Positions 7,334 through 17,013 of a stretch of DNA of 36,271 bases are shown here, one piece after another. Position numbers and translations under genes: made by a program. The notes under the pieces were generated by a model. That model had not been told where the DNA came from, made no database searches, and worked only from the letters and a program-made list of their open reading frames with translations. Origin of the DNA: a virus; IMG/VR virus record IMGVR_UViG_3300025889_000395, positions 1-36,271 of that record; one strand, 5' to 3'. How positions within the stretch are numbered: position 1 is the first letter of the stretch; the number at the start of each line of letters is the position of its first letter.

Positions 7334-7686
7334 ATTACAAATATCCAGTTTGGGCTATCAAGAGAGATGTTCGTGACGTTGAGATGCCTGTAAATGAAAG
7401 CGGTTACCCAGGTTATGATCATGCTATTTGGTATTGGTGGGATCTTAAAACTACCACTTTGAATACTTATGATGGTGTGACTTGGGATGCCGCTGATTTC
7501 ATTATTCGTTCCAAGAATAAGACTTTGATGGAGTCTCCTTATGTAAAAATTGAATGGGAGAGGCTTTCAGAAGACACTTGGAGAAAATATTGCATCACTG
7601 GTGGCTCTAAAACTGTTGTGGCTACTTTGACTAAGCGTGGTCGTATTGAGAATCCTGAGTCTACTTATAGATGGTATAAGGAGTAA
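7327..7686 (+). CDS. Hypothetical Trp-rich protein, 119 aa
   Basis: AGG about 6 bases upstream supports ATG 7327. The product is rich in tryptophan and aromatic residues (HAIWYWWDLKTTT, VTWDAADF, EWERLSEDTWRKY, YRWYKE) and looks like a compact beta protein. No family was recognised. The next start lies only 3 bases after its stop. Confidence 0.65.
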   Translation: MVNYKYPVWAIKRDVRDVEMPVNESGYPGYDHAIWYWWDLKTTTLNTYDGVTWDAADFIIRSKNKTLMESPYVKIEWERLSEDTWRKYCITGGSKTVVATLTKRGRIENPESTYRWYKE

Positions 7687-7688
7687 TT

Positions 7689-7850
7689 GTGTCTAAGAAG
7701 TTGTATCTTGATGGATCTCCTGACACTTTCACTATGCGTGAGTTTCTTGAAATGAGAGACGCTGATAGTGTTGAGTCTATGAGAGGTGATGATTATGATG
7801 TATGGAGTTTCTTGAAAAAGAAGGAGAAAGATAATGGGACCGAAGAATAG
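7689..7850 (+). CDS. Hypothetical protein, 53 aa, GTG start
   Basis: AAGGAG at 7679-7684 precedes GTG 7689 with good spacing. It encodes a short charged protein (lysine-rich start, acidic middle, lysine-rich end) with no recognised motif. Its end overlaps the next gene by 17 bases, so they are likely translated in tandem. Confidence 0.6.
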   Translation: MSKKLYLDGSPDTFTMREFLEMRDADSVESMRGDDYDVWSFLKKKEKDNGTEE

Positions 7851-8037
7851 AAATGCTAAACTTGCTAGTGATGGCAAGCCACAGAAGCAAGTTATTGGAA
7901 CCCACGTTAGATATATTGGTATGGGTGATAAGTGGTATACTTGTTCTGTTTGTGATCGCCGTTTCTTGCGTGGTTTCTTTTGGGAATCCGAAGGGAAGAG
8001 CGGCTGTACCCAAAGGTGTCTCAAGAAGCAACTCTAA
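7834..8037 (+). CDS. Small zinc-finger-like protein, 67 aa
   Basis: An AAGGAG SD precedes ATG 7834. CSVC (about 42-45) and CTQRC (about 58-62) form a four-cysteine pattern suited to one zinc ion, with basic flanks (MGPKNRNAKLASDGKPQKQ and the KKQL end) that suggest nucleic acid binding. Rival frames here lack a comparable SD. Function is not established. Confidence 0.65.
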   Translation: MGPKNRNAKLASDGKPQKQVIGTHVRYIGMGDKWYTCSVCDRRFLRGFFWESEGKSGCTQRCLKKQL

Positions 8038-8055
8038 TTACATGTGGGAGTGATA

Positions 8056-8334
8056 ATGGAAGATATCAAATTCTTTACATTGGCTGAAGATGAAAGCGGT
8101 TTCCCAACTCCAGAAGATCTGATTGATAAGTTTATCTCTCTCCATAATGAGATGGGGATTGATGATGCTGACATGCTTGATCAGTCAATAGATTCGCTTA
8201 TGGTTAATACCGCTCTAGCATTTGATGCTCAGTATGTTAAGGTTGAAAATAAAACCTATGTGTTCTTCCCTCATGATATACCTATAGATGAAGCTGTTGT
8301 TGTCTATAAAAATCAAAACAGAATAGAGTTTTAG
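8056..8334 (+). CDS. Hypothetical acidic protein, 92 aa
   Basis: GGGAG at 8046-8050 favours ATG 8056 over the GTG at 8044. It is acidic, with a helical middle (DLIDKFISLHNEMGIDDADMLDQSIDSLMVNTALAF) and a beta-rich C-terminus (YVKVENKTYVFFPHDIPIDEAVVVY). The family is unknown. It is the last gene before the strong terminator at 8341. Confidence 0.65.
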   Translation: MEDIKFFTLAEDESGFPTPEDLIDKFISLHNEMGIDDADMLDQSIDSLMVNTALAFDAQYVKVENKTYVFFPHDIPIDEAVVVYKNQNRIEF

Positions 8335-8340
8335 AAATAA

Positions 8341-8372
8341 ACGGGGGGTGCGAAATATTTCGCACCCCCCGT
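8341..8372 (+). terminator. Rho-independent terminator, perfect 32-base palindrome
   Basis: The 32-base segment is a perfect inverted repeat (arms ACGGGGGGTGCGAAA with TTTCGCACCCCCCGT) followed by a T-rich run. It ends the operon of small genes upstream. Its centre contains GTGCGAAA and TTTCGCAC back to back, the same 8-mer as the promoters of the cassette array at 11-18 kb. Confidence 0.85.
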
Positions 8373-8417
8373 ACCTTTTGTTTTTATTCGTTAGTTTGTT
8401 TCTGTATGGAGCTTATT

Positions 8418-8516
8418 GTGGCTAAATTGAAGTGTGAAGAGTGCGGTCGTGTTTTTGACCTTTCTAATGAAGAAGAGGCAGAGGAGTGGTATTACGGTCA
8501 TGATTGCGAAGGGTGA
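8418..8516 (+). CDS. Zinc-ribbon miniprotein, 32 aa, GTG start
   Basis: GGAG at 8408-8411 is correctly spaced for GTG 8418; an in-frame ATG at 8406 lacks an SD. The product has CEECG (Cys-x2-Cys) and a C-terminal HDCEG, enough ligands for a single zinc ion, in the manner of small zinc-ribbon proteins common in phage genomes. Role unknown. Confidence 0.55.
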   Translation: MAKLKCEECGRVFDLSNEEEAEEWYYGHDCEG

Positions 8517-8586
8517 GATAATCGCTCTGGTTCTGGCGATTTCTGCTGTTGTGTATGGTTACATTGTTCTTTTTGATATTAAGTGA
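8500..8586 (+). CDS. Single-helix membrane miniprotein, 28 aa
   Basis: This short frame starts within the previous gene. It encodes MIAKGEII followed by a 16-residue hydrophobic helix and the end FDIK. The SD is weak, so translation probably depends on coupling. Its reality rests on the membrane helix and the tight overlaps with neighbours. Confidence 0.4.
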   Translation: MIAKGEIIALVLAISAVVYGYIVLFDIK

Positions 8587-8594
8587 GGTTTACT

Positions 8595-8765
8595 ATGGTT
8601 GATGAATGCCTTATCCATCGAACGAATCTTGAGTATCTACATATCTGTATTCAGGATCTAGAGCAGGCTGGTATCGAACTTCCTTTAGGGGAGTATGATG
8701 ACCTGTATAACATTATTGAAGAGGTGCGTGAGTATTTCTTTGATGTTGCCGAAGGGAAGAAATGA
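8595..8765 (+). CDS. Hypothetical protein, 56 aa
   Basis: GTGAGG about 6 bases upstream sets the start at ATG 8595 rather than the ATG at 8583. The product is a small all-helical acidic protein (DECLIHRTNLEYLHICIQD, then EYDDLYNIIEEVREYFFD). No domain was recognised. Stop and next ATG overlap (ATGA). Confidence 0.6.
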   Translation: MVDECLIHRTNLEYLHICIQDLEQAGIELPLGEYDDLYNIIEEVREYFFDVAEGKK

Positions 8766-8857
8766 CTGTTTATAAAAAAATAATTATTGGTATTTCTGTT
8801 TTGGCTGTCATTTCTTGTTATGTCGGTCTCTATTATATCGTCACCCTTAGTTATTAA
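8762..8857 (+). CDS. Single-helix membrane miniprotein, 31 aa
   Basis: GAAGGGAAG precedes ATG 8762. MTVYKK is followed by a hydrophobic stretch to the end (IIIGISVLAVISCYVGLYYIVTL), one transmembrane helix. It is one of several membrane miniproteins in this operon and may be a small toxin or membrane effector; function unknown. Confidence 0.55.
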   Translation: MTVYKKIIIGISVLAVISCYVGLYYIVTLSY

Positions 8858-8866
8858 AAGGTTGTT

Positions 8867-9100
8867 ATGAATAACTATCCACCCGGTGTTTCTGGATTGG
8901 AACCAGAAATTGAAGGACCGCTTCGTGAAGAAGAAGTTGTTGTCGATTTCGTTTGTAAAAACTGTGTCGATGATGGTAGAGAACGTTGGGGTTTTCTTCA
9001 GTTGTATCGTGACAAGTATTGGATTGTCTTTTGGGATTGTCCATCTTGTGGTACTGAGTATGTCAAAGATGGTTATGATGAAAATGGATGGAGTAAGTGA
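8867..9100 (+). CDS. Zinc-ribbon protein with YPPGVSG motif, 77 aa
   Basis: The N-terminus MNNYPPGVSGLEPEIEG matches the YPPGVTG-NEPEI signature that recurs in small proteins of many actinobacteriophages. It is followed by two cysteine pairs, CKNC (about 30-33) and CPSC (about 58-61), that would bind one zinc ion, and a beta hairpin between them. Biochemical function is unknown. This family is a useful marker of an actinophage. Confidence 0.75.
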   Translation: MNNYPPGVSGLEPEIEGPLREEEVVVDFVCKNCVDDGRERWGFLQLYRDKYWIVFWDCPSCGTEYVKDGYDENGWSK

Positions 9101-9261
9101 TGTACATTGTTATGACCGGTAATCCGTTTGATGGTTACGAATTTTTTGGTCCTTTCGATGATGTTGATGATGCTTGTTTTTGGGCTGATCGGAATGCTTC
9201 ATGGGAATGGTATTCGGTGAAGATTGCTCCTGTTAATGAAGTGAAGGATGGTGATGTCTGA
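9100..9261 (+). CDS. Conserved small actinophage-type protein, 53 aa
   Basis: The start overlaps the preceding stop. The sequence YIVMTGNPFDGYEFFGPFDDVDDACFWADRN resembles the short actinophage family with 'V.GNP.DG....GPF...E.A...A' (from memory, not searched): a strand, a turn and a helix. The C-terminus gives another strand (SWEWYSVKIAPV). Function is unknown. The stop overlaps the next ATG. Confidence 0.65.
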   Translation: MYIVMTGNPFDGYEFFGPFDDVDDACFWADRNASWEWYSVKIAPVNEVKDGDV

Positions 9262-9617
9262 TGGGTGCTGATTTTATTTGGGCTAGAGCTGATATAAGCG
9301 AAGGGTTGGATGTTTGGGTTGAAAGACTTGAGCATCTTCCTGATGCTGAAGTTTTTTCAGCACTACTTTATCATCATGATTGGGATCATTATGATGGCAA
9401 TATTTATGCTGCTCGGTCTGAGATTATGTCTGCTATTGATGTTTGCTTTGACAGAAGCAGGAGGGATGTTGGTAGGGCATGGTTTGGTGATAATTGTGAG
9501 TATCTTATTACTGGCGGTTTGAGTTGGGGAGATGATCCAACTGAAGCTTTTGCTTCTGTCACATTATTCAGCGACTTTCAGTATTGGTATCGTTTCAGTA
9601 TTGGTATCGTGAAGTAA
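9261..9617 (+). CDS. Hypothetical protein with LSWGD-PTEAF motif, 118 aa
   Basis: The protein reads MGADFIWARADIS, then a helix, then DNCEYLITGGLSWGDDPTEAFASVTLFSDF, a pattern I associate with small actinophage proteins of unknown function. The last residues are altered by a 17-base tandem duplication (9576-9609): without it the frame would stay open into the following gene. The stop at 9615-9617 may therefore be a recent product of that duplication. Confidence 0.7.
   Translation: MGADFIWARADISEGLDVWVERLEHLPDAEVFSALLYHHDWDHYDGNIYAARSEIMSAIDVCFDRSRRDVGRAWFGDNCEYLITGGLSWGDDPTEAFASVTLFSDFQYWYRFSIGIVK
9576..9609 (+). repeat. 17-base perfect tandem duplication
   Basis: Bases 9576-9592 and 9593-9609 are identical (TTTCAGTATTGGTATCG). 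Because 17 is not a multiple of three, the second copy shifts the reading frame at the end of the upstream gene. Confidence 0.95.
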
Positions 9618-9631
9618 GAGGGGCTTCTTTT

Positions 9632-9883
9632 ATGACTAATGAAGAAAGAGAAAGAATGGAGTATGGTCAAATGATGATTAGTTTGCATACTACCATTCCT
9701 GAGTGGATGCCTGAAAAGCTTGACGGTGATCGTGTTATTGGTTGGCGTTTGATGACTGAGGCGGTGAATGGTGTAGCTAAGCCGGTTGGTTATCAGATCG
9801 TCTCAAATGGCGGGATCTATGAATCAAACATGGATGGCCTAATCTATAGAGCTACTAACTTGAATATGATTGGAGAAAACTGA
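9632..9883 (+). CDS. Hypothetical protein, 83 aa
   Basis: GAGGGG at 9618-9623 precedes ATG 9632. The N-terminus MTNEERERMEYGQ is helical and charged. The rest is beta-like (GWRLMTEAVNGVAKPVGYQIVSNGGIYE), resembling a small single-domain fold. No family recognised. The stop overlaps the next ATG. Confidence 0.65.
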   Translation: MTNEERERMEYGQMMISLHTTIPEWMPEKLDGDRVIGWRLMTEAVNGVAKPVGYQIVSNGGIYESNMDGLIYRATNLNMIGEN

Positions 9884-10098
9884 TGGAAAAGAAACTGCCG
9901 GAATTTATTTATGCTGTAAAGACTATCGCTTATGATGTGCAAGACATCGTAGACGATATTAGAAAGGCGGATCCTGATAAGGAAGAAATCGGGATCGAAG
10001 ATGTCATTGATGTAATCGATATGCGTCTAGAAGATGACGATGACCACAAGGGCAATATGTTTACCTTGGTAGACGGAAATGGCTACGAATACGACTGA
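9883..10098 (+). CDS. Hypothetical very acidic protein, 71 aa
   Basis: This is the last gene of the left + strand operon. It is dominated by Asp/Glu (DVQDIVDDIRKADPDKEE, then MRLEDDDDHKG) and could mimic DNA in charge, as some phage inhibitors do, but nothing proves this. After it comes a 1.1-kb stretch with no gene. Confidence 0.65.
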   Translation: MEKKLPEFIYAVKTIAYDVQDIVDDIRKADPDKEEIGIEDVIDVIDMRLEDDDDHKGNMFTLVDGNGYEYD

Positions 10099-10354
10099 CA
10101 AATTTGCCGGGGTGAGATAAATAACTATCATATATATATCTACCCAGAGAAAGAAACAACAAACAGCAAACCAACACACCAGATAAACCAGAAACAACCC
10201 CCGAAAAAAGAAAAACCAGATAAACAATCCTAACAAAAAGAAAAAAAGATCCTAACAAAACCCCTAAAAGATGTTGCGATCATTCAATAAACATGCAAGT
10301 AATCGTATGTTTATGCACAATTACGTGGGTTTTTTCCTGGTTTTCGTGGATTTT

Positions 10355-10413
10355 ATGCATAATTACTGTATATTTATGCATATTTATGCATTGCGATGCA
10401 TAATTACTGTATA
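10355..10413 (+). repeat. Iteron-like direct repeats, possible origin
   Basis: The 18-mer ATGCATAATTACTGTATA occurs at 10355-10372 and 10396-10413. Between them TATTTATGCA is repeated in tandem (10371-10390), and a degenerate relative occurs near 10305-10320. AT-rich iterons of this kind are typical of replication initiator or regulator binding sites. No initiator gene is adjacent, so the role is a guess. Confidence 0.6.
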
Positions 10414-10473
10414 ATCCTATGAAAAGACTAGGAAATATTCCAAGGGTGGGGTGGGTGTCTACTACTATCTCCT

Positions 10474-10589
10474 ATGTATCCCCTATATAGGAAATAAGAC
10501 ATCTCACCCCGCCTTTTGGATTATCTGGGTTCTTTCAGCTGGTTATGTGTGTCTCCTCTATATAGGAAATACAACACCTTATCCCGCCT
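10474..10589 (+). repeat. Two about 44-base direct repeats with CCTATATAGG-type core
   Basis: Segments at 10474-10516 and 10545-10589 are very similar (both read TATGT-TC-CCT, then CTATATAGGAAATA, then CCCGCCTT). The core CTATATAG is palindromic, as expected for a dimeric protein site. The start-to-start distance is about 71 bases. Confidence 0.7.
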
Positions 10590-10626
10590 TGTTTCTCCAG
10601 AATAAATGTTGACTACTTTGGTCGTC

Positions 10627-10657
10627 TTTTAGGCCCTGTAAATTCGGGGCCTAAAAA
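10627..10657. repeat. Inverted repeat
   Basis: TTTTAGGCCC and GGGCCTAAAA form a hairpin with a 10-base loop. It is not a normal terminator on either strand, because the downstream side is A-rich rather than T-rich. Confidence 0.55.
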
Positions 10658-10685
10658 AATTTGTCTATAGTCAGAAATGGAAATA

Positions 10686-11101
10686 AATATGAGAAGAGAA
10701 TGAGATATTCCCCTGTTAATGTCTTGTTTCAAAACATCAAAATCAATAACTATGTTTTCCCCTATAAAGAAATAGAACCGTCGATTAGTCCTATCTGATC
10801 TACTATATAAGATGGAGAGAAAGCTCTTATATAAGATGATGATAAACCCGGCTTGAAAAGTGCCTAAAAAAACCGGGGAGAAACCGCCTATATTACTCCC
10901 TTGTAATCTCCTGCTTATCCACGATATAAAACCCGATGGAATAACCAAACAGAACCCCGCCTAACTATCCAGCTACCAGAAAAAATCCCACCCGGTTGGG
11001 TGGACCAACTTTTCACCAAATTTAATACGTCATACGAACAGAAAAAACGGGTCCGAATAAAACCCAAATCCCAAACCAAATAGACAATATGAGAAGAGAA
11101 T
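10686..11101 (+). repeat. 16-base direct repeat pair, 400 bases apart
   Basis: AATATGAGAAGAGAAT occurs at 10686-10701 and at 11086-11101. It may be a protein site within the gene-free region. ATATAAGATG is also repeated near 10806 and 10829. Confidence 0.6.
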
Positions 11102-11201
11102 CAACTAGTCCTAATTAATATTGGAAACCAAAATCGGATGTCACAAAACAAATATCAATACGAAAATCTATTCAACCTGTCAAGTGGCAAAATCAAAACA
11201 A

Positions 11202-11244
11202 ATGGGTGTTCAAAGAAAAACTTCGTTTTTCTTTGAACACCCAT
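11202..11244 (-). terminator. Strong terminator at the left end of the cassette array
   Basis: Two perfect 19-base arms (11202-11220 and 11226-11244) enclose the loop CTTCG. On the - strand the stem is followed by a T-rich stretch (TTGTTTTGATTTTG), so it should stop transcripts from the array. The symmetric stem may also act on + transcripts. Confidence 0.85.
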
Positions 11245-11294
11245 CATGCTTGGGTTTCGGTGATGGGTGCGAGTGTTGATACGTGAATGGAAAT

Positions 11295-11370
11295 ACATAT
11301 GAAAGATTGAGTAGAGCCTACCCTAACATGACTGGCGTTCCAAGCCGCGAAGCGGCGCAGTGAACGCCAG
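11295..11370 (-). repeat. Cassette-junction remnant: box-A-like motif and second-type hairpin
   Basis: After the terminator of the leftmost cassette there is a 39-base hairpin (11332-11370, arms CTGGCGTTC/GAACGCCAG with inner GCCGC/GCGGC). A CCTACCCTA element follows (11318-11326), then a weak copy of the conserved box (ACATATGAAA, 11295-11304). This matches the order of a normal junction but leads to no gene, so a further cassette was probably lost here. Confidence 0.6.
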
Positions 11371-11373
11371 CAA

Positions 11374-11401
11374 GGCCCGCACCCCCCAGGGGGTGCGGGC
11401 C
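11374..11401 (-). terminator. Terminator of cassette 1
   Basis: GC-rich hairpin with arms GGCCCGCACCCCC/GGGGTGCGGGCC directly after the stop of cassette 1. There is no real T-run; a second hairpin follows, like the tandem or U-less terminators of actinobacteria. Confidence 0.8.
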
Positions 11402-11407
11402 GTACTG

Positions 11408-11752
11408 TCAGGCCTGGCGGGCTGCGTACAGCTCGCCGTCGCTCGTCGTGACCGCCGTCAGGGCGACCCCGCTCGCCTTGGCGAGCGTGGCGACCCGCTG
11501 ACGGTAGCGGCTCGTCCAGGCGTTCAGCAGGGCGGCCTCGTCGCCCTGGTAGCGGGTCAGGCGCTCGGCCCGGTACTGGGCGAACTCGTCGCCGTTCAGA
11601 TCGAACTCGGGGATCAGCATGGCTTCCCCGATTTCGAGCGCCTGGGCGTCGCTGATGTCCAAGGCGGACACCGTCGACTTGCGGCCACGCTTGGCGACCT
11701 TGGGCTGGATACTGGCAAGGCTCACGACCTTGCGAGTGGGCTTGCTGGACAT
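11408..11752 (-). CDS. Cassette 1: small basic protein, paralogue of cassette 2, 114 aa
   Basis: ATG at 11752 follows a GGAGG SD. The protein has the near-identical N-terminal block RKVVSLASIQPKVAKRGRKSTV, with an AT-hook-like RGRK (22-25), then an acidic alpha region (ALEIGEAMLIPEFDLNGDEF), an Arg-rich helix (LLNAWTSRYRQRVATLAKASG) and the C-terminus TAVTTSDGELYAARQA. About 78% of residues match cassette 2 by my own count, with no length change, so the pair arose by duplication. Nucleic acid binding is plausible from RGRK and the Arg-rich helix, but the family is not recognised. Own promoter at 11805-11836. Confidence 0.85.
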   Translation of the reverse strand: MSSKPTRKVVSLASIQPKVAKRGRKSTVSALDISDAQALEIGEAMLIPEFDLNGDEFAQYRAERLTRYQGDEAALLNAWTSRYRQRVATLAKASGVALTAVTTSDGELYAARQA

Positions 11753-11772
11753 CACTACCTCCGTAGTGTCGT

Positions 11773-11795
11773 GACAGGAACCGGGTGTCCCTGTC
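11773..11795 (-). other. 5' mRNA stem-loop of cassette 1
   Basis: On the - strand GACAGG and CCTGTC pair around an A-CACCCGG-type loop. It begins within about 10 bases of the predicted transcription start, upstream of the SD. Confidence 0.65.
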
Positions 11796-11804
11796 GCTAG
11801 GTAC

Positions 11805-11836
11805 AAGGTAACACATGTGTCCGGATACATGCGAAA
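11805..11836 (-). promoter_or_regulatory. Promoter of cassette 1
   Basis: On the - strand TTTCGCAT (11836-11829), 18 bases, then -10 TACCTT (11810-11805). Confidence 0.75.
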
Positions 11837-11862
11837 CCTGGCAAATGGCCTACCCTATCGGA

Positions 11863-11901
11863 GTGGTGTACGGAATTTCGCTACGCGATTCCGTACACCA
11901 C
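11863..11901 (-). repeat. Junction inverted repeat upstream of promoter 1
   Basis: 14-base perfect arms GTGGTGTACGGAAT/ATTCCGTACACCAC enclose TTCGCTACGCG. Box A (ATATGTGTGAAA on +, 11920-11931) follows. Confidence 0.85.
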
Positions 11902-11957
11902 CGTGAGTAGAGATTGAGAATATGTGTGAAAGTCGAAGGCTGTAACGTCTAGAAGGA

Positions 11958-11996
11958 CTGGTGTTCCAAGCCGCGAAGCGGCGCAGTGAACACCAG
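11958..11996 (-). repeat. Second-type hairpin after cassette 2 terminator
   Basis: Arms CTGGTGTTC/GAACACCAG with inner GCCGC/GCGGC. It has the same architecture as 11332-11370 with a compensated C-G to T-A pair. Confidence 0.8.
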
Positions 11997-11999
11997 AAA

Positions 12000-12027
12000 G
12001 GGCCGCACCCCGTTCGGGGTGCGGCCC
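12000..12027 (-). terminator. Terminator of cassette 2
   Basis: Hairpin arms GGGCCGCACCCCG/CGGGGTGCGGCCC. Only a short T3 run follows on the - strand. Confidence 0.8.
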
Positions 12028-12033
12028 GGTCTG

Positions 12034-12378
12034 TCAGGACTGCCGTGCGGCGTACATCTCGCCGTCGCTGGTGGTGACGGCGGTGAGGTTCACACCGCTG
12101 GCCTTGGCCAGAGCGGCCACACGCTGGCGGTGACGGCTGGTCCAGGCGTTGGTGAGGGCGGCGGCATCGTAGTTGTACCGGATGATCCGCTCCTCATGGT
12201 AGGCGTAGAAGTCCTCGCCGTTGAGGTCGTACTCCGGAATGAGCATCGCCTCACCGATCTCCAGAGCCTGCGCATCTGCGATGTCGAGGTCGGTGACGGT
12301 GGACTTGCGGCCTCGCTTGGCAACCTTGGGTTGCAGGCTGGCCAGGCTGACGACCTTGCGGTCAGGGTTGGTGGACAT
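12034..12378 (-). CDS. Cassette 2: small basic protein, paralogue of cassette 1, 114 aa
   Basis: ATG at 12378 follows an AAAGGG SD. Conserved with cassette 1: the RKVVSLAS-QPKVAKRGRKSTV block, DAQALEIGEAMLIPE-DLNG, NAWTSR-RQRVA-LAKASGV, and LTAVTTSDGE-YAARQ. Divergence clusters at residues 55-76 (EDFYAYHEERIIRYNYDAAALT here), so that region may set partner specificity, while the N- and C-terminal blocks are under constraint. Function unknown; expression is from its own promoter at 12428-12459. Confidence 0.85.
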   Translation of the reverse strand: MSTNPDRKVVSLASLQPKVAKRGRKSTVTDLDIADAQALEIGEAMLIPEYDLNGEDFYAYHEERIIRYNYDAAALTNAWTSRHRQRVAALAKASGVNLTAVTTSDGEMYAARQS

Positions 12379-12397
12379 GGTATCCCTTTCGGGTTGG

Positions 12398-12418
12398 GCA
12401 GGGACCGGATGTCCCTGC
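12398..12418 (-). other. 5' mRNA stem-loop of cassette 2
   Basis: GCAGGGAC and GTCCCTGC on the - strand pair around loop ATCCG, near the predicted mRNA 5' end. Confidence 0.65.
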
Positions 12419-12427
12419 TCTGAGTAC

Positions 12428-12459
12428 AGACTACACCAAGGGACAGAATATGCACGAAA
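12428..12459 (-). promoter_or_regulatory. Promoter of cassette 2
   Basis: TTTCGTGC, 18 bases, TAGTCT. The box differs from consensus at two positions (GTG for CAC pattern). Confidence 0.75.
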
Positions 12460-12485
12460 CTTGGACTCTGGCCTACCCTGTCGAA

Positions 12486-12524
12486 GTGGTGTGCGGAATT
12501 TCGCTACGCGATTCCGCACACCAC
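12486..12524 (-). repeat. Junction inverted repeat upstream of promoter 2
   Basis: Arms GTGGTGTGCGGAAT/ATTCCGCACACCAC enclose TTCGCTACGCG. Compared with 11863-11901, a T-A pair is replaced by C-G on both arms (covariation). Degenerate box A at 12543-12554. Confidence 0.85.
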
Positions 12525-12580
12525 CGTGAGCAGAGAGTGGAAGCGTGTGTGAAAGTTGCGGTGTCTACTATCTAGGTGGA

Positions 12581-12619
12581 CTGGTGTTCCACAGCGCGAA
12601 GCGATGTGCTGAACACCAG
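12581..12619 (-). repeat. Second-type hairpin after cassette 3 terminator
   Basis: Arms CTGGTGTTC/GAACACCAG; the inner part is less regular than in the two copies to the left. Confidence 0.75.
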
Positions 12620-12622
12620 CGA

Positions 12623-12650
12623 AGGCCGCACCCCCGAAGGGGTGCGGCCT
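12623..12650 (-). terminator. Terminator of cassette 3
   Basis: Hairpin arms AGGCCGCACCCC/GGGGTGCGGCCT around CGAA. Confidence 0.8.
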
Positions 12651-12664
12651 GTCGCCGGGGGAGG

Positions 12665-13003
12665 TCAGTCGCCCGTCACGCCGTATTCCAGGAAGAGGTC
12701 ACACGCCGTGAAGAGGTCCAGCTCTTCCTGGCTGCCGCTGTCCGGACCCGGGAGGTCCCAGCCGTCAGCGATCCGGAGCCACTCATCCCAGACCCAGAAC
12801 GCAGCCTTGACGGCCTCCGGGGGGACGGTGTCCCCGTCGTGCAGGAAGGCGAGTTGCTCGGCCTGGCTGACAGCGTCGACGGAGTCGGCGAAGATCGCCA
12901 GACCCGGGGCGCTGAGCTTGCCGGTGTCGGCCAGCAGTCGGTTCAGGAACGCTCCGACCGTCACCATGCAACGGCAGAGCAGTTCGTATTCGTACTTCGG
13001 CAT
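12665..13003 (-). CDS. Cassette 3: acidic helical protein, 112 aa
   Basis: ATG at 13003 has GGGAGG at 8 bases; a GTG two codons earlier is too close to the SD. The product is mostly helical (MPKYEYELLCRCMVTVGAFLNRLLADTGK), with a central HDGDTVPPEAVKAAFWVWDEWLRIADGW segment and an acidic C-terminus (LDLFTACDLFLEYGVTGD). No recognised family. Promoter at 13062-13093; no clean 5' stem-loop of the common type is seen, only a GGTCACCGTGAC element. Confidence 0.8.
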   Translation of the reverse strand: MPKYEYELLCRCMVTVGAFLNRLLADTGKLSAPGLAIFADSVDAVSQAEQLAFLHDGDTVPPEAVKAAFWVWDEWLRIADGWDLPGPDSGSQEELDLFTACDLFLEYGVTGD

Positions 13004-13061
13004 TTCCACTACCTCCCATTAGTTGCGTCACGGTGACCCCATGTCCCCGTCGACATCTGTC

Positions 13062-13093
13062 ACGTTATCGCATGGGACCGAATATGTGCGAAA
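13062..13093 (-). promoter_or_regulatory. Promoter of cassette 3
   Basis: TTTCGCAC, 18 bases, TAACGT on the - strand. Confidence 0.8.
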
Positions 13094-13118
13094 CTTCGTG
13101 ACAGATGCGCCTACATCG

Positions 13119-13157
13119 CTGGAGTACGAATTTTCGCTTCGCGAATTCGTACTCCAG
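13119..13157 (-). repeat. Junction inverted repeat upstream of promoter 3
   Basis: 14-base arms CTGGAGTACGAATT/AATTCGTACTCCAG around TTCGCTTCGCG. Box A variant at 13176-13187. Confidence 0.85.
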
Positions 13158-13213
13158 TCTGCCTTGTGAGCAGAGATGTGTGTGAAATTTGTATTGGCAT
13201 ATGTGTAGAGTGA

Positions 13214-13252
13214 CTGGCGTTCCACGACGCGAAGCGGCGTGCTGAACGCCAG
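13214..13252 (-). repeat. Second-type hairpin after cassette 4 terminator
   Basis: Arms CTGGCGTTC/GAACGCCAG with loop containing GACGCGAAGCGGCG. This is the rightmost copy of this hairpin type; cassettes 5-13 lack it. Confidence 0.8.
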
Positions 13253-13255
13253 CAA

Positions 13256-13283
13256 GGGCCGCACCCCCTGGAGGGTGCGGCCC
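13256..13283 (-). terminator. Terminator of cassette 4
   Basis: Hairpin arms GGGCCGCACCC/GGGTGCGGCCC. Confidence 0.8.
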
Positions 13284-13299
13284 GGTGCCGGGAGGGAAA

Positions 13300-13599
13300 C
13301 TAGCCGCCGTAGCGGACGACGCAGCCGTGGCAGTAGCACCGATCGTCCAACGTGTCGACGTACGCCGGTTCGCCGCAGTCACGGCACGGCAAGTACTTGT
13401 CGACCCCCTCCAGGGTCGATTCGGCGTAGACGACCGCCGACATGATGACCTGGCGAATCCCGTCCAGATTCCTGATTCGGGATTCTCCGAACGTCTCATC
13501 GTCGGCCATACCGGCATTGTCATATGCCTCCAGCAAGGCACGAACCGTGTCCCTGATGAGCAGGCAGTACCGCATGTGCTCTTGAAGTACCTGTTCCAT
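13300..13599 (-). CDS. Cassette 4: helical protein with C-terminal zinc site, 99 aa
   Basis: ATG at 13599 follows GGAGGG. The N-terminal three quarters are helical (MEQVLQEHMRYCLLIRDTVRALLEAYDN and IRQVIMSAVVYAESTLEGVDKY). The end carries CRDCGEPAYVDTLDDRCYCHGC, four cysteines plus His/Cys in a CxxC...CxCHxC pattern, a zinc ribbon or knuckle. Zinc proteins of this size often bind RNA polymerase or nucleic acid; whether this one does is unknown. Own promoter at 13652-13683. Confidence 0.85.
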   Translation of the reverse strand: MEQVLQEHMRYCLLIRDTVRALLEAYDNAGMADDETFGESRIRNLDGIRQVIMSAVVYAESTLEGVDKYLPCRDCGEPAYVDTLDDRCYCHGCVVRYGG

Positions 13600-13621
13600 C
13601 ACTACCCTCCAGTAGCTAGTG

Positions 13622-13642
13622 GCCAGGACCGGATGTCCTGGC
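13622..13642 (-). other. 5' mRNA stem-loop of cassette 4
   Basis: GCCAGGAC and GTCCTGGC on the - strand pair around ATCCG. Confidence 0.7.
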
Positions 13643-13651
13643 GACAATGTC

Positions 13652-13683
13652 ATCGTATCACCAGGGACCGAATATGTGCGAAA
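13652..13683 (-). promoter_or_regulatory. Promoter of cassette 4
   Basis: TTTCGCAC, 18 bases, TACGAT on the - strand. Confidence 0.8.
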
Positions 13684-13709
13684 CCCGATGGAATATGTGG
13701 CCTACGTTG

Positions 13710-13749
13710 CGGGCGTACGGAATTTCGCTGCGCGCTCTCCGTACGCCCG
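13710..13749 (-). repeat. Junction inverted repeat upstream of promoter 4
   Basis: 12-base arms CGGGCGTACGGA/TCCGTACGCCCG around a loop with TTCGCTGCGCG. Box A variant ATGTGTACGAAA at 13767-13778. Confidence 0.85.
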
Positions 13750-13826
13750 TCTTGGGCGGGAGAAAGATGTGTACGAAAGTTGGAATGGTAACAGAAGTAA
13801 TGTGTCGGGTGTTGGGCACGAAAAAA

Positions 13827-13850
13827 GCCCGGGGGCCGAAGCCCCCGGGC
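13827..13850 (-). terminator. Terminator of cassette 5, with T-run
   Basis: Arms GCCCGGGGGC/GCCCCCGGGC with a TTCG tetraloop on the - strand, followed by six T. A textbook rho-independent terminator. Confidence 0.92.
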
Positions 13851-13859
13851 GATTCCCGG

Positions 13860-14114
13860 TCAGTAGCGCCGGTCGAACTGGTAGTACCAGTCTTCCGGTT
13901 CGCCATCGGTCGGCGGGGTCACGTCGAACGTGATTCCACCCTGGTCCACGTCGTTGTATTCGACGTGCACTTCGACCGTTTCGCCGTCGAACGTGACAAC
14001 GACATCGATCATGTCGGTGACGTTCGTTTCGGCGATGTCGTCGGAGTCCTCGCCTTCCCAGATCCAACGGATCTGTGCGGGTGAGAGTCGAACACGTCGG
14101 TTCGCATCTGTCAT
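13860..14114 (-). CDS. Cassette 5: acidic beta-rich protein, 84 aa
   Basis: ATG at 14114 follows GGGAGG. After a basic start (MTDANRRVRLS) the protein is very acidic, with alternating strands (MIDVVVTFDGETVEVHVEYNDVDQGGITFDVTP) and an aromatic end (EDWYYQFDRRY). It is probably a small beta-sandwich or barrel. No family recognised; a charge-mimic inhibitor is conceivable. Confidence 0.85.
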   Translation of the reverse strand: MTDANRRVRLSPAQIRWIWEGEDSDDIAETNVTDMIDVVVTFDGETVEVHVEYNDVDQGGITFDVTPPTDGEPEDWYYQFDRRY

Positions 14115-14136
14115 GGCATCCCTCCCAGGGATTGGA

Positions 14137-14155
14137 GCAGAACCGGATGTCCTGC
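14137..14155 (-). other. 5' mRNA stem-loop of cassette 5
   Basis: GCAGGAC on the - strand pairs with GTTCTGC around ATCCG (one G-U). Confidence 0.65.
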
Positions 14156-14165
14156 CGTTGAGTAA

Positions 14166-14197
14166 ACCTTATCACGTGTGACAGAATACGTGCGAAA
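14166..14197 (-). promoter_or_regulatory. Promoter of cassette 5
   Basis: TTTCGCAC, 18 bases, TAAGGT on the - strand, matching the array consensus exactly. Confidence 0.85.
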
Positions 14198-14223
14198 CTG
14201 GCCAGATGGCTTGCCCTATCGGC

Positions 14224-14262
14224 CTGGCGTGCAAGATGTCGCTTCGCTTACTCGCCCGCCAG
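14224..14262 (-). repeat. Junction inverted repeat upstream of promoter 5
   Basis: Outer arms CTGGCG/CGCCAG and a loop with CGCTTCGC; the inner stem is imperfect. Box A at 14281-14292 (ATATGTGTGAAA on +). Confidence 0.75.
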
Positions 14263-14327
14263 TCGGTCGGTGGAAGAGAGATATGTGTGAAAGTTGGAAG
14301 GGCAATGGAGGTAATGTGCCTGGAGGT

Positions 14328-14355
14328 TTCCCCCGGGGCCGAAGCCCCGGGGGAA
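14328..14355 (-). terminator. Terminator of cassette 6
   Basis: 12-base arms TTCCCCCGGGGC/GCCCCGGGGGAA with a TTCG-type tetraloop; no long T-run. Confidence 0.85.
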
Positions 14356-14359
14356 CCGG

Positions 14360-14545
14360 TCAGGCATTGACGATCTGCGCCCGGGCGATCGTCGTGACCA
14401 ACTCTTCGGCCTTGCCCATGTCGGGGAAGAAGAAGTTGACCGTGTCGGTGCCGACACGGATCTGGACCGTCACGAACGTCGTGAAGTCCCGGATCTCGGC
14501 CGACACACGATCGTCGGCCGCATGGATGTTCGTCTGACTGGACAT
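14360..14545 (-). CDS. Cassette 6: small alpha/beta protein, 61 aa
   Basis: ATG at 14545 follows GGGAGG. The end of the protein (VTVQIRVGTDTVNFFFPDMGKAEELVTTIARAQ) is a strand-strand-helix unit similar in layout to cassette 7 (FVLKLIIGSSDVTIHGSDETIRKIIAAVASL), so the two may be distant paralogues. Family and function unknown. Confidence 0.85.
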   Translation of the reverse strand: MSSQTNIHAADDRVSAEIRDFTTFVTVQIRVGTDTVNFFFPDMGKAEELVTTIARAQIVNA

Positions 14546-14565
14546 TGTTCCCTCCCAGGAACTGG

Positions 14566-14588
14566 GGCAGGAACCGGATGTTCCTGCC
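14566..14588 (-). other. 5' mRNA stem-loop of cassette 6
   Basis: GGCAGGAAC and GTTCCTGCC on the - strand pair around ATCCG. The stem starts within a few bases of the predicted start site near 14591. Confidence 0.75.
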
Positions 14589-14597
14589 GTTGAGTAA

Positions 14598-14629
14598 ACC
14601 TTATCACGTGTGACAGAATACGTGCGAAA
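14598..14629 (-). promoter_or_regulatory. Promoter of cassette 6
   Basis: TTTCGCAC, 18 bases, TAAGGT. The spacer is the same as in promoter 5, so duplication is recent. Confidence 0.85.
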
Positions 14630-14653
14630 CCTACCAGATGGCTTCACCTATTG

Positions 14654-14696
14654 GACTGGCGTGCAAGATGTCGCTTCGCTTACTCGCCCGCCAGTC
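14654..14696 (-). repeat. Junction inverted repeat upstream of promoter 6
   Basis: 8-base outer arms GACTGGCG/CGCCAGTC, loop with CGCTTCGC. Box A at 14713-14724. Confidence 0.75.
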
Positions 14697-14772
14697 GGCG
14701 GGTGAAAGAAAGATATGTGTGAAAGTTGGAAGGGTAATGGAGGTAATGTGTTTGGTGTTGGGCACGAAAAAA

Positions 14773-14796
14773 GCCCGGGAGCCGAAGCCCCCGGGC
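14773..14796 (-). terminator. Terminator of cassette 7, with T-run
   Basis: Arms GCCCGGG-A-GC/GC-C-CCCGGGC, one mismatch, then six T on the - strand. Confidence 0.9.
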
Positions 14797-14803
14797 CTTC
14801 CCG

Positions 14804-14995
14804 TCACAGCGAGGCGACCGCTGCGATGATCTTTCGGATCGTCTCGTCGGAGCCGTGGATCGTCACGTCGGACGATCCGATGATGAGCTTCAGGACGAAC
14901 TGCCCCTCGAAACCCGGGATGGGTCGGACTTCCGTCTTGACGATGTGCTCGTCGTCACAGAACATCGTGACGAGACTCACAGGATTGTGACTCAT
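14804..14995 (-). CDS. Cassette 7: small alpha/beta protein, 63 aa
   Basis: ATG at 14995 follows GGAGGG. The product looks like a compact beta-beta-alpha protein (TEVRPIPGFEGQFVLKLIIGSSDVTIHG, then SDETIRKIIAAVASL). Its C-terminal pattern matches cassette 6. It is unrelated by eye to any enzyme family; role unknown. Confidence 0.85.
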   Translation of the reverse strand: MSHNPVSLVTMFCDDEHIVKTEVRPIPGFEGQFVLKLIIGSSDVTIHGSDETIRKIIAAVASL

Positions 14996-15017
14996 TGTTC
15001 CCTCCAGGGAAGCAGTG

Positions 15018-15037
15018 CAGGGAGCGGATTCTCCCTG
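15018..15037 (-). other. 5' mRNA stem-loop of cassette 7
   Basis: CAGGGAG and CTCCCTG on the - strand pair around AATCCG. Confidence 0.7.
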
Positions 15038-15046
15038 ACAGGAATC

Positions 15047-15078
15047 AATCTACACCATGAGAACAGATACGTGCGAAA
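15047..15078 (-). promoter_or_regulatory. Promoter of cassette 7
   Basis: TTTCGCAC, 18 bases, TAGATT on the - strand. Confidence 0.82.
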
Positions 15079-15104
15079 CCTACAGGATCGCGTACCCTGT
15101 CGGA

Positions 15105-15143
15105 CTGGCGTGCAAGCTACACGCTTCGCTGCTTGCCCGCCAG
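15105..15143 (-). repeat. Junction inverted repeat upstream of promoter 7
   Basis: CTGGCG-T-GCAAGC and GCTTGC-C-CGCCAG pair with one internal mismatch, loop TACACGCTTCGCT. Box A at 15162-15173. Confidence 0.82.
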
Positions 15144-15221
15144 TCGGTCGGTGGAAGAGAGATATGTGTGAAAGTTGGGTTGGGGATGAAGGTAATGTGA
15201 TTGTGGTAAGGCACGAAAAAA

Positions 15222-15245
15222 GCCCGGGGGCCGAAGCCCCCGGGC
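15222..15245 (-). terminator. Terminator of cassette 8, with T-run
   Basis: Arms GCCCGGGGGC/GCCCCCGGGC, TTCG tetraloop, six T on the - strand; the stem equals that of cassette 5. Confidence 0.92.
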
Positions 15246-15254
15246 GATTCCCGG

Positions 15255-15488
15255 TCAGTAGTTCCTGGCCGTCAGGTATCGGGCACCTTCCAGGTCGGTC
15301 CCGATCGGGAACCGGACTTCGTGGTCGGTGGCCGTTTCCTGCCAGTACCGGATCGTGACGATCGCCTCGCCGTCGACGATCCGGATCGAAACGTCGATGT
15401 CCTCTTCGACGGTGGTGATGTCGAAGTCGTCGTCGTCGGGATGCCAGGTCAGTCGGATCGTTCCGACTGACAGGTCGATGTCTTGCAT
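15255..15488 (-). CDS. Cassette 8: acidic beta-rich protein, 77 aa
   Basis: ATG at 15488 follows GGAGGGG. The N-terminal half is rich in Asp (HPDDDDFDITTVEEDIDVSIRIVDGEAIVTIRYW), alternating as beta strands, followed by a short C-terminal part ending RYLTARNY. General layout resembles cassette 5. No family recognised. Confidence 0.85.
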   Translation of the reverse strand: MQDIDLSVGTIRLTWHPDDDDFDITTVEEDIDVSIRIVDGEAIVTIRYWQETATDHEVRFPIGTDLEGARYLTARNY

Positions 15489-15511
15489 TGCGTCCCCTCC
15501 TGGGAGTCGTG

Positions 15512-15531
15512 CAGGGAGTGGATTCCCCCTG
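15512..15531 (-). other. 5' mRNA stem-loop of cassette 8
   Basis: CAGGGGG and CTCCCTG pair (with G-U/near matches) around AATCCA on the - strand. Confidence 0.6.
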
Positions 15532-15540
15532 ACAAAGACC

Positions 15541-15572
15541 ACCTTAGCAGGTGGGACAGAATACGTGCGAAA
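15541..15572 (-). promoter_or_regulatory. Promoter of cassette 8
   Basis: TTTCGCAC, 18 bases, TAAGGT on the - strand. Confidence 0.85.
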
Positions 15573-15598
15573 CCTACAGGATCGCGTACCCTGTTGGA

Positions 15599-15637
15599 CT
15601 GGCGTGCAAGCTACACGCTTCGCTGCTTGCCCGCCAG
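15599..15637 (-). repeat. Junction inverted repeat upstream of promoter 8
   Basis: Identical in sequence to the copy at 15105-15143. Box A at 15656-15667. Confidence 0.82.
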
Positions 15638-15704
15638 TCGGCGGGTGGAAGAGAGATATGTGTGAAAGTTGAGTTGGGATAAGTCGTAATGTGTCTGGTG
15701 TTGT

Positions 15705-15728
15705 GCCCCGGGGCCGAAGCCCCGGGGC
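15705..15728 (-). terminator. Terminator of cassette 9
   Basis: Arms GCCCCGGGGC/GCCCCGGGGC with a TTCG tetraloop; no T-run. Confidence 0.85.
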
Positions 15729-15735
15729 CACACCG

Positions 15736-15942
15736 TCACGCCTCCATCGTGGTCTTGGCCATGGTGAAGATGGTTCCCCACTCGTCAACCTTGACGAGGC
15801 AGATGATGCCGGAGTACCCAGAGATGGCGGCGGCGTTCACCGCCGCCCCGTAGGCCATGATGGCCTCCCTTTCCTCCGTCGTGCCGACGAAGTGGGCAGT
15901 GTTGCCCACTCCGTTGTGGAACCGGTGCTGGATTGCGTACAT
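15736..15942 (-). CDS. Cassette 9: small alpha/beta protein, 68 aa
   Basis: ATG at 15942 follows GGAGG. The sequence begins MYAIQHRFHNGVGNTAHFVGTTEEREAIMAYGAAVNAAAISGYSGIICLVKVDEWGTIFTM: a strand, an Ala-rich helix and two strands. The beginning MY-IQ resembles cassette 13 (MYVIQ). Function unknown. Confidence 0.85.
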   Translation of the reverse strand: MYAIQHRFHNGVGNTAHFVGTTEEREAIMAYGAAVNAAAISGYSGIICLVKVDEWGTIFTMAKTTMEA

Positions 15943-15961
15943 GATCCTCCAATCATGCTTG

Positions 15962-15980
15962 CGGCGAGCCTCTCCCGCCG
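15962..15980 (-). other. 5' mRNA stem-loop of cassette 9
   Basis: CGGCG and CGCCG pair in the - strand leader; the sequence is unrelated to the CAGGGA stems, but the position is the same. Confidence 0.6.
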
Positions 15981-15989
15981 ACAGATGTA

Positions 15990-16021
15990 ACCTTAGCACA
16001 TGAGACAGAATGCGTGCGAAA
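15990..16021 (-). promoter_or_regulatory. Promoter of cassette 9
   Basis: TTTCGCAC, 18 bases, TAAGGT on the - strand. Confidence 0.85.
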
Positions 16022-16047
16022 CTTGCAGGCTCGCGTACCCTGTCAGA

Positions 16048-16084
16048 CTGGCGTGCGATTTTGTTGCACCGCACCGCACGCCAG
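16048..16084 (-). repeat. Junction inverted repeat upstream of promoter 9
   Basis: 10-base arms CTGGCGTGCG/CGCACGCCAG. The loop lacks the usual CGCTTCGC core. Box A at 16103-16114. Confidence 0.82.
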
Positions 16085-16149
16085 TCGGTCGGTGTGTGAG
16101 AGATATGTGTGAAAGTTGTAGGGATGATGAGAGTAATGTGTTTGGTGGT

Positions 16150-16176
16150 GGCCCCGGGGCATGTCGCCCCGGGGCC
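16150..16176 (-). terminator. Terminator after microORF A
   Basis: 11-base perfect arms GGCCCCGGGGC/GCCCCGGGGCC, 5-base loop, directly after the microORF stop. Confidence 0.85.
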
Positions 16177-16182
16177 GGTGTG

Positions 16183-16218
16183 TCACCCGATCAATGCTCG
16201 GAGTATGATTCCTAGCAT
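16183..16218 (-). CDS. MicroORF A, 11 aa (MLGIILRALIG)
   Basis: On the - strand AAAGGAGGTGAC, nearly the full anti-SD complement, stands directly before ATG 16218. The frame is only 11 codons then TGA and gives a hydrophobic peptide with one Arg. It lies between two hairpins (16241-16266 and 16150-16176) with no promoter of its own, so it must be read from the promoter of cassette 10. It could be a membrane peptide, a leader peptide or a ribosome trap. Support comes from a near-twin at 17254-17289 with the same arrangement. Confidence 0.7.
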   Translation of the reverse strand: MLGIILRALIG

Positions 16219-16240
16219 GTCACCTCCTTTCGGTAGTGGC

Positions 16241-16266
16241 GACCCCGGGGTCACGACCCCGGGGTC
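16241..16266 (-). terminator. Hairpin between cassette 10 gene and microORF A
   Basis: GACCCCGGGGTC is repeated around CAC/ACG and can fold fully; no T-run. As the microORF lies beyond it, it may be a partial terminator, attenuator or processing site. Confidence 0.7.
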
Positions 16267-16272
16267 ACACGG

Positions 16273-16446
16273 TCACCGACCGCCGAACTGCTCGTTCAGT
16301 TCGTCGGTGTAGGCCCACTCCCACTCCCGGCACTTGCGGCACTTCCAGTTCGGGTTCTTGATGTAGGAACCCTTGCCCGTAGCCCGGGCGGACTCCGTTG
16401 CGATGATGTCGAACCGGCCTTCATGGTTCAGAACGATGTGGAACAT
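16273..16446 (-). CDS. Cassette 10: small protein with CxxC, 57 aa
   Basis: ATG at 16446 follows GGGAGGGG. MFHIVLNHEGRFDIIATESARATGKGSYIK is followed by the Trp-rich NPNWKCRKCREWEWAYTDELNEQFGGR. CRKC plus His/Cys elsewhere could bind metal, but only two cysteines are present, so a dimer or no metal is possible. A microORF follows in the same transcript. Function unknown. Confidence 0.82.
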   Translation of the reverse strand: MFHIVLNHEGRFDIIATESARATGKGSYIKNPNWKCRKCREWEWAYTDELNEQFGGR

Positions 16447-16467
16447 GTCCCCTCCCAGGGAGTCGTG

Positions 16468-16486
16468 CAGGGAGCGAATCCCCCTG
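16468..16486 (-). other. 5' mRNA stem-loop of cassette 10
   Basis: CAGGGGG and CTCCCTG (one mismatch or G-U) around ATTCG on the - strand. Confidence 0.6.
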
Positions 16487-16495
16487 ACAGACACA

Positions 16496-16527
16496 ACCCT
16501 AGCACGTCGGTGAGAATACGTGCGAAA
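16496..16527 (-). promoter_or_regulatory. Promoter of cassette 10
   Basis: TTTCGCAC, 18 bases, TAGGGT on the - strand. Confidence 0.82.
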
Positions 16528-16551
16528 CCTGGCAGTCAACCCTACCTGATC

Positions 16552-16594
16552 GACGGGCGTGCGATGTATCGCTTCGCCTCATCGCACGCCCGTC
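16552..16594 (-). repeat. Junction inverted repeat upstream of promoter 10
   Basis: 15-base perfect arms GACGGGCGTGCGATG/CATCGCACGCCCGTC around TATCGCTTCGCCT. Box A at 16611-16622. Confidence 0.88.
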
Positions 16595-16659
16595 TTGGGG
16601 CGTGTGAAGGATATGTGTGAAAGTCGGAGTGGTGATGGAGGTAATGTGCCTGGTGTTGT

Positions 16660-16683
16660 GCCCCGGGGCCGAAGCCCCGGGGC
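16660..16683 (-). terminator. Terminator of cassette 11
   Basis: Arms GCCCCGGGGC/GCCCCGGGGC, TTCG tetraloop, no T-run. Confidence 0.85.
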
Positions 16684-16689
16684 ACCCGG

Positions 16690-17013
16690 TCAGTAGCCCC
16701 CGGCGGTGATGATGTCGACCCTCTGCAGGGCCTCCATCACGGCCGGATCGGTCGGCGCCGGAATCCCGACCTCCACGGCCAGGTCGATCGCCCTGGCCAG
16801 CATCCCGGCATACTGACTGGCCACGTCGAACCAGTCAAGGTGGTCACCTGGACGCTCGCCCTGGACGAACGGGTCGAGCGCCGACATTGCGACCAGAGCG
16901 GCCTCGTAGCTGCTCTGGAAGGTCGGCCGAACCTCGTGGTCGGAATGGTCGATCAGGTGACCGATGATGGTCACAATCTGATCTAGGAGATGGAAACAGG
17001 TCAAGGTGTGCAT
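16690..17013 (-). CDS. Cassette 11: helical protein, 107 aa
   Basis: ATG at 17013 follows GGGAGGG. The protein is mostly helical: LTCFHLLDQIVTIIGHLIDHSDHE, FQSSYEAALVAMSALDPF, DVASQYAGMLARAIDLAVEVG and DPAVMEALQRVDIITAGGY. His and Asp are frequent near the N-terminus. No family recognised. Its promoter deviates from the rule by one base of spacing. Confidence 0.85.
   Translation of the reverse strand: MHTLTCFHLLDQIVTIIGHLIDHSDHEVRPTFQSSYEAALVAMSALDPFVQGERPGDHLDWFDVASQYAGMLARAIDLAVEVGIPAPTDPAVMEALQRVDIITAGGY

Follow-up and report, generated by a model that had tools for sequence, protein, structure and literature searches.

A hairpin at nearly fixed distance from putative promoters in the small-gene array of an uncultivated relative of the Stanwilliamsviridae

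The virus record IMGVR_UViG_3300025889_000395, analysed here over its full length of 36,271 bases (the window), carries an array of thirteen small genes, and a hairpin, H, recurs in front of each of them. The closest known concept, so far as the available parts of the sources go, is that of the promoter early stem-loops (PeSLs) of T4-type phages. PeSLs, a subject of Arbiol 2010 and Comeau 2014, are reportedly thought to allow gene shuffling by homology. The accessible text describes them as cassettes of promoter and stem-loop between small variable genes (PMC4503421; cited in PMC4177764). The terminal region of SPO1 holds a host takeover module of many small, probably early genes that have strong promoters and ribosome binding sites (PMC6873191). 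In the BE1 phages of Streptomyces, a soil bacterium, the direct terminal repeats measure about 11 kb (PMC5764925).

Judged by its portal protein, which shows 45% identity to that of Streptomyces phages of the family Stanwilliamsviridae, the window phage is an uncultivated relative of this family (the large BE-cluster phages of Streptomyces). Like the PeSLs, its array repeats a composite of terminator, stem-loop and promoter between small genes, with 13 junction modules whose promoters are recognised by motif. We consider it rather probable that H and the promoter form one cis-regulatory module, which was reused by local copying, and that inverted copies of H cap the distal cassettes.

The array occupies about 11200–18210, and its genes, all on the minus strand, span 11408–17974. 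In the direction of the genes, a junction runs from the stop codon to a G+C-rich terminator, then (cassettes 1 to 4) an extra hairpin, H′, then box B (ACTTTCACACATAT), H, box A (GTTTCGCACRTATTC, a −35-like motif), an extended −10, a small hairpin of the 5′ untranslated region (5′UTR; by eye), a Shine-Dalgarno site and the next gene. Boxes A and B are direct repeats whose starts lie 93–95 bp apart in 12 of 12 junctions.

Spacing and covariation of hairpin H

Relatives were sought in a ThyX-based collection, in which 80 of 109 loci were retained. Three have H elements together with a complete distal end: G002 (locus L104, 10 H), G013 (L106, 8 H) and G019 (L113, 12 promoters, with 10 H found by the model and two by eye). 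H-like hairpins are also carried by G015 and G012.

The end of H lies 22–24 nt from the promoter motif in all 41 junctions of the four phages (mean 23.1, standard deviation 0.52). These are 13 junctions of the window, 10 of G002, 8 of G013 and 10 of G019, each measured to the motif of its own phage (TTTCGCAC, TTTTAGTGCA, TTTAGTGC and TTTTAGTACC, respectively). The two additional G019 junctions read by eye have a spacing of 23, and alignment on the common TTTAGT/TTTCG start gives 22–25. In G015 the distance is 28 nt from the stem end (25 after a 3-nt flank) in six of six hairpins, the count taking in those with a TTTAGT motif nearby and leaving out those without. The extended −10, about 50 nt downstream of H, also keeps a constant distance within each phage, in 12 of 13 cases in the window. 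Identity of the spacer between phages is 0.22–0.33, compared with 0.24–0.27 for shuffled sequences. The distance is thus kept while the spacer sequence is not, which argues for a link between H and the promoter at the DNA level rather than for RNA processing.

The stem was examined in an alignment of 31 H and nine reverse-complemented H′ from three phages (40 sequences, 39 distinct). Its 12 pairs are formed in 88% of cells, with 78 double changes versus 24 ± 6 after shuffling, and the covariation score is 0.395 versus a maximum of 0.115 for slid structures. Stem columns 5, 6 and 9 are paired in all 39 distinct copies with two to three pair types, and the inner stem positions covary. The window H and H′ tested gave RNA folding z-scores of −3.3 to −6.5. 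No Rfam family was matched at its gathering score.

Junction classes and the distal end

The initial annotation had described two sub-families of junction, and the extra hairpin proved to be confined to cassettes 1 to 4 as stated. The pattern CTGGYGTTC-N12..24-GAACRCCAG occurs exactly four times in the window and not once in 100 dinucleotide shuffles. Each copy directly follows the GGCCGCACCC-type terminator of one of genes 1 to 4: H′ (identified by pattern, H model and orientation) at 11332–11370, 11958–11996, 12581–12619 and 13214–13252, with the terminators at 11374–11401, 12000–12027, 12624–12649 and 13257–13282, the last of this type. Genes 5 to 13 have CCCCGGGGC-type terminators and no extra hairpin, again as described; that a T-run often follows was a generous wording, as one stands behind three of the nine (genes 5, 7 and 8).

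Reverse-complemented, H′ aligns better to H in 47 of the 52 window comparisons and in all 16 made in G013, and no promoter motif was seen on the other strand beside nine H′ (four in the window, three in G002, two in G013). By these alignments, which demonstrate the inversion in two phages, H′ is an inverted, promoterless copy of H. It is restricted to the last cassettes of every array, namely 4 of 13 in the window, 3 of 10 in G002, 2 of 8 in G013 and 2 of 12 in G019, where one of the pair was found by the model and the other by eye and folding. From this comparison, the two junction sub-families are an old positional layout shared among phages.

The similarity of junctions to one another depends on their position, in agreement with the earlier suggestion that the array grew through the copying of adjacent junctions. 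This was assessed by distance matrices with the Mantel test, and not by a tree, on the core from box B through H to box A of the 12 complete junctions (J). Junction distance rises with distance along the array (r=0.64, p=5e-5; p=2e-4 in a rerun). The effect persists under shuffling within classes (p=0.010; neighbour test p=0.0007), is weaker in J5–J12 alone (r=0.34, p=0.048), and for H alone in cassettes 5–13 gives r=0.18 and p=0.17, the neighbour test alone falling below 0.05 (p=0.027). Cores differ by 8% between J5 and J6 and by 13% between J7 and J8. Among the relatives, G002 gives r=0.49 (p=0.0006), G019 r=0.37 (p=0.017, from 10 of its 12 cassettes) and G013 r=0.35 (p=0.058).

The best division into classes separates the first four copies of H from the rest, and for box B it falls after J2 or J3. 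Because these cuts differ, J4 itself is split by the class border, with box B on one side and H on the other. Thus the unit that switches class is H, promoter, gene, terminator and extra hairpin. Among the thirteen array proteins paralogy is detectable for genes 1 and 2 alone; the junctions are nevertheless alike, and therefore seem to have been copied largely independently of the genes, unless the genes diverged fast. The likeness of neighbours and the border inside J4 are compatible with local exchange, with gene shuffling between related phages a candidate role of the junctions.

At the left end of the array, the initial annotation saw a degraded junction without a gene, as if a cassette had been lost. 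There is indeed no gene, but "degraded" fits only box B (11293–11304, a 12-mer with two mismatches to ATAYGTGYGAAA); the terminator of gene 1 and its H′ are both intact. Beyond H′, the usual form of H, the promoter and the gene are all absent, and a perfect hairpin of 20–21 bp (11201–11245; 21 pairs and no mismatch) ends the array, with neither gene nor promoter beyond it. This terminal hairpin, which had no part in building the H model, matches it with 26.2 bits in the window (E 8e-4) and 22.7 bits in G002. Its RNA folding z-scores are −8.9 in the window, −7.7 in G002, −6.8 in G013 and −3.4 in G019, and in the window it bears a terminator-like tail. The distance from H′ to the terminal hairpin, compared with that from H′ to the next H, is 83 versus 82 nt in G002, 82 versus 50 in the window and 78 versus 51 in G013.

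The last genes of the four arrays are members of a single family, and each is followed by terminator, H′ and terminal hairpin, with no further gene. A search of window 9900–11330 for a remnant of an array gene, with 350 proteins, reached at best E 0.001, with the product of a mechanically listed open reading frame as query, which was judged to be chance; the best trace of array DNA there (E 0.03) was not convincing. Since the same gene-less end occurs in four arrays and no convincing remnant was found, the left end is taken as the usual end of such arrays, and the loss of a cassette is rejected.

Proposed mechanism and rival explanations

We propose that the array is made of thirteen single-gene transcription units, whose genes are probably early (host-takeover) genes. 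A unit would comprise H, a spacer of about 23 nt, a putative promoter (−35-like element and extended −10), the 5′UTR hairpin, the Shine-Dalgarno site, a small gene and a terminator. Acting as DNA, H would control the promoter from a fixed helical position upstream of it, so that all cassettes could answer one signal. Because its two arms change jointly, H may be read in a folded form, as hairpin or cruciform, by a postulated factor. The module of H and promoter would also supply shared sequence for the local copying or exchange of cassettes, and neighbouring junctions would be alike because modules were copied locally. The H′ of the distal cassettes, with the closing terminal hairpin, may act as end caps or boundary elements. 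A bolder form, speculative and on the whole improbable, is that a cruciform H, standing almost invariably about 23 bp ahead of ordinary promoters, switches the whole gene bank together, the trigger being for example supercoiling or the single-strand state of the incoming DNA, while the inverted promoterless copies close the distal end.

Several points weigh against a regulatory module of this kind. The promoters are putative, being recognised by motifs that were picked after the sequences had been viewed, and a plain sigma-70 scan gives no excess (4 found, 2.7 expected). Covariation can also arise from quasi-palindrome correction, and that of H may stem in part from the relatedness of its copies. 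The orientation of H′ is undecided in G002 (14 of 30 comparisons), where the loop is nearly symmetric. The H model missed two of the 12 H and one of the two H′ of G019, which were taken by eye, as well as the terminal hairpins of G013 and G019. It had no match in five stretches from isolates (Blueeyedbeauty, two stretches; Jay2Jay; DekoNeimoidia; Circinus). The factor that would read H is a postulate, and position is the one ground for placing the array in a terminal repeat.

The main rival, unlikely but to be taken seriously, is that H is an ordinary double-stranded operator on which a dimeric repressor or activator binds two half-sites (CTGGYGTNC), the hairpin being incidental. The nearly fixed distance to the promoter and the conservation of the outer half-site across phages suit it. 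Independent recognition of half-sites would nevertheless permit asymmetric copies, but the half-sites change together at columns 5, 6 and 9 in every distinct copy and the inner stem covaries. It remains the main rival because palindrome correction and the relatedness of the copies weaken this argument for a folded form. Less probable still is that H acts as RNA, as a site for RNase III or other processing or as an insulating fold, on transcripts that begin at box B or continue past the terminator. The strong folding and covariation would be expected of it, and many junctions have the AT-rich box B directly upstream of H; examined by eye as a second promoter, box B showed no −10-like element. 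A nearly fixed promoter distance is not needed for action as RNA, and the lack of an Rfam match speaks against this role too.

It is very improbable that H and H′ delimit cassettes mobilised by a site-specific recombinase, in the manner of an integron or as units between inverted repeats. The distal genes are flanked by H and inverted H′, and the class border separates box B from H, as such movement could produce; yet most cassettes have no H′. An integron attC site has inverse core boxes, unlike the direct boxes A and B found here. Tyrosine integrase (PF00589), which is linked to an integron array, and resolvase (PF00239) were each absent from six of six records, with positive controls (14 of 14 for the integrase). 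Integron and resolvase systems were rejected on these grounds. An equally poor prospect is a history of two growth phases by neighbour copying with a cassette lost at the left end, as first suggested. The position-dependent similarity and the two junction classes agree with it, but three relatives share both the distal-only placement of H′ and the gene-less end, and window 9900–11330 holds no convincing remnant. Hardly credible, finally, is a system like that of phage N4, in which H would be a hairpin promoter for a virion RNA polymerase. A hairpin does stand at a nearly fixed distance ahead of every gene, but the extended −10 lies downstream of it, and the stems of N4-type hairpins are shorter than the at least 12 pairs of H. 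Single-subunit polymerase (PF00940) was found in none of six records, a result that is uninformative as no control was positive either; Lsr2 (PF11774) was likewise absent from the six, with one control positive. We therefore retain the module of H and promoter as the preferred explanation.

Gene content, genomic setting and known systems

All parts of the array, including H′, the terminators and the terminal hairpin, are on the minus strand. Gene 1 (11408–11752, 114 amino acids) is of the distal family common to the four arrays, and gene 2 (12034–12378, 114 amino acids) shows 78% identity to it. Gene 3 (12665–13003) encodes 112 residues and gene 4 (13300–13599) 99 residues with two CxxC motifs seen by eye. 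The others are gene 5 (13860–14114, 84 residues), gene 6 (14360–14545, 61), gene 7 (14804–14995, 63), gene 8 (15255–15488, 77), gene 9 (15736–15942, 68), gene 10 (16273–16446, 57), gene 11 (16690–17013, 107), gene 12 (17386–17544, 52) and gene 13 (17762–17974, 70).

The H and promoter modules, located by the H model and the spacing, are H1 at 11805–11904, H2 at 12428–12527, H3 at 13062–13160 and H4 at 13652–13752, with the class border between the H4 module and box B of the same junction. They continue with H5 at 14166–14265, H6 at 14598–14697, H7 at 15047–15146, H8 at 15541–15640, H9 at 15990–16087, H10 at 16496–16595, H11 at 17061–17160 (TAnnnT absent at the usual place), H12 at 17568–17667 and, at the array head, H13 at 18023–18122, upstream of which a box-B-like element was seen by eye (18193–18211).

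The scan for the gene 1 family reached two relatives, and no Pfam or PHROG family was matched. Its fold model (predicted local distance difference test, pLDDT, 79.5) had one match among viral structures, to an uncharacterised protein (E 6e-4), and nothing better than E 1 in the PDB. In G015 a gene that resembles this family by eye (L116:5118–5432, minus strand) lies past the end of the array and points the opposite way; upstream of it stands an H-like hairpin of its own. A WhiB-like regulator gene (phrog_12112, E 3e-10) lies inside the G013 array (L106:5482–5718).

In most cassettes a 5′UTR hairpin of the CAGGGACATCCGGTCCCTG type precedes the Shine-Dalgarno site (window 11753–18000); its loop type appears, by eye, to switch after cassette 6 rather than after cassette 4. 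Two 11-codon minus-strand frames with strong Shine-Dalgarno sites, MLGIILRALIG (16183–16218) and MIGIILRALFM (17254–17289), are each enclosed by a pair of terminators, the first following gene 10 and the second gene 12. Among the loci compared they are confined to the window phage and the near-identical contig.

The array region (11200–18130) has 60% G+C, and 84% at third codon positions, versus 41% elsewhere in the window. The arrays of the relatives have a similar rise, seen by eye at the array position in more than a dozen ThyX loci; the host, or the source of the array genes, may be behind it. Just right of the array (18201–18450) the plus strand is nearly all G and T (129 G and 102 T in 250). 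Arrays at the same place in L025, L038, L077 and L115 (G004, G005, G003 and G012) are rich in palindromic motifs peculiar to each phage (TAACGTTA, CCTAACCTAAC, TGTAACATTACA), as if each had an operator of its own.

Contig G001 (94.5 kb) is 99.9% the same phage as the window. It breaks off within the array, at a 52-bp shared repeat, and its opposite end overlaps window 1–10669; the break at the repeat is an assembly limit and no physical end of the genome. A DNA search of the phage collection matched neither the array nor the 12-kb part at the right. Near-identical arrays were sought by paired boxes A and B, and the sole match was IMGVR_UViG_3300006802_000076, 99.9% the same phage, which was also the only match to gene 11; neither search turned up two close relatives that differ in a single cassette. 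The promoter pattern retrieved three more contigs, all without a match to H, and the H pattern retrieved no contig with a further array.

The rule of H, about 23 nt, promoter, small gene and terminator can be used to find unannotated rows of phage genes, and new inhibitors of actinobacteria may be among them. The four phages also offer a natural experiment, as the layout, the hairpin and its promoter distance are common to them while promoter sequence, loop and genes differ; this contrast makes a promoter-coupled hairpin directly testable.

A literature search that covered few subscription papers gave no account of such a hairpin-promoter module. Neither PeSLs nor SPO1 is known, within the available parts of the sources, to have a hairpin at fixed distance upstream of each promoter or inverted promoterless copies at one end. 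As in the BE1 terminal repeat of Jay2Jay (PMC5764925), small minus-strand genes lie beside ThyX, which adjoins the window array, and those of the window have their own motif-based promoters, as an early module in such a repeat would. In contrast to the window array, the five isolate stretches noted above gave no match to the H model, and the place of the window array in a terminal repeat is a putative one, judged by position. Its many small, probably early genes also recall the SPO1 module, although the SPO1 genes form operons and the available text describes no repeated hairpin module (PMC6873191). Compared with the PeSLs, the window phage is not T4-type, its H is distinct from the terminator and stands upstream of the promoter at nearly fixed spacing, and its array carries inverted promoterless copies of H at the distal end.

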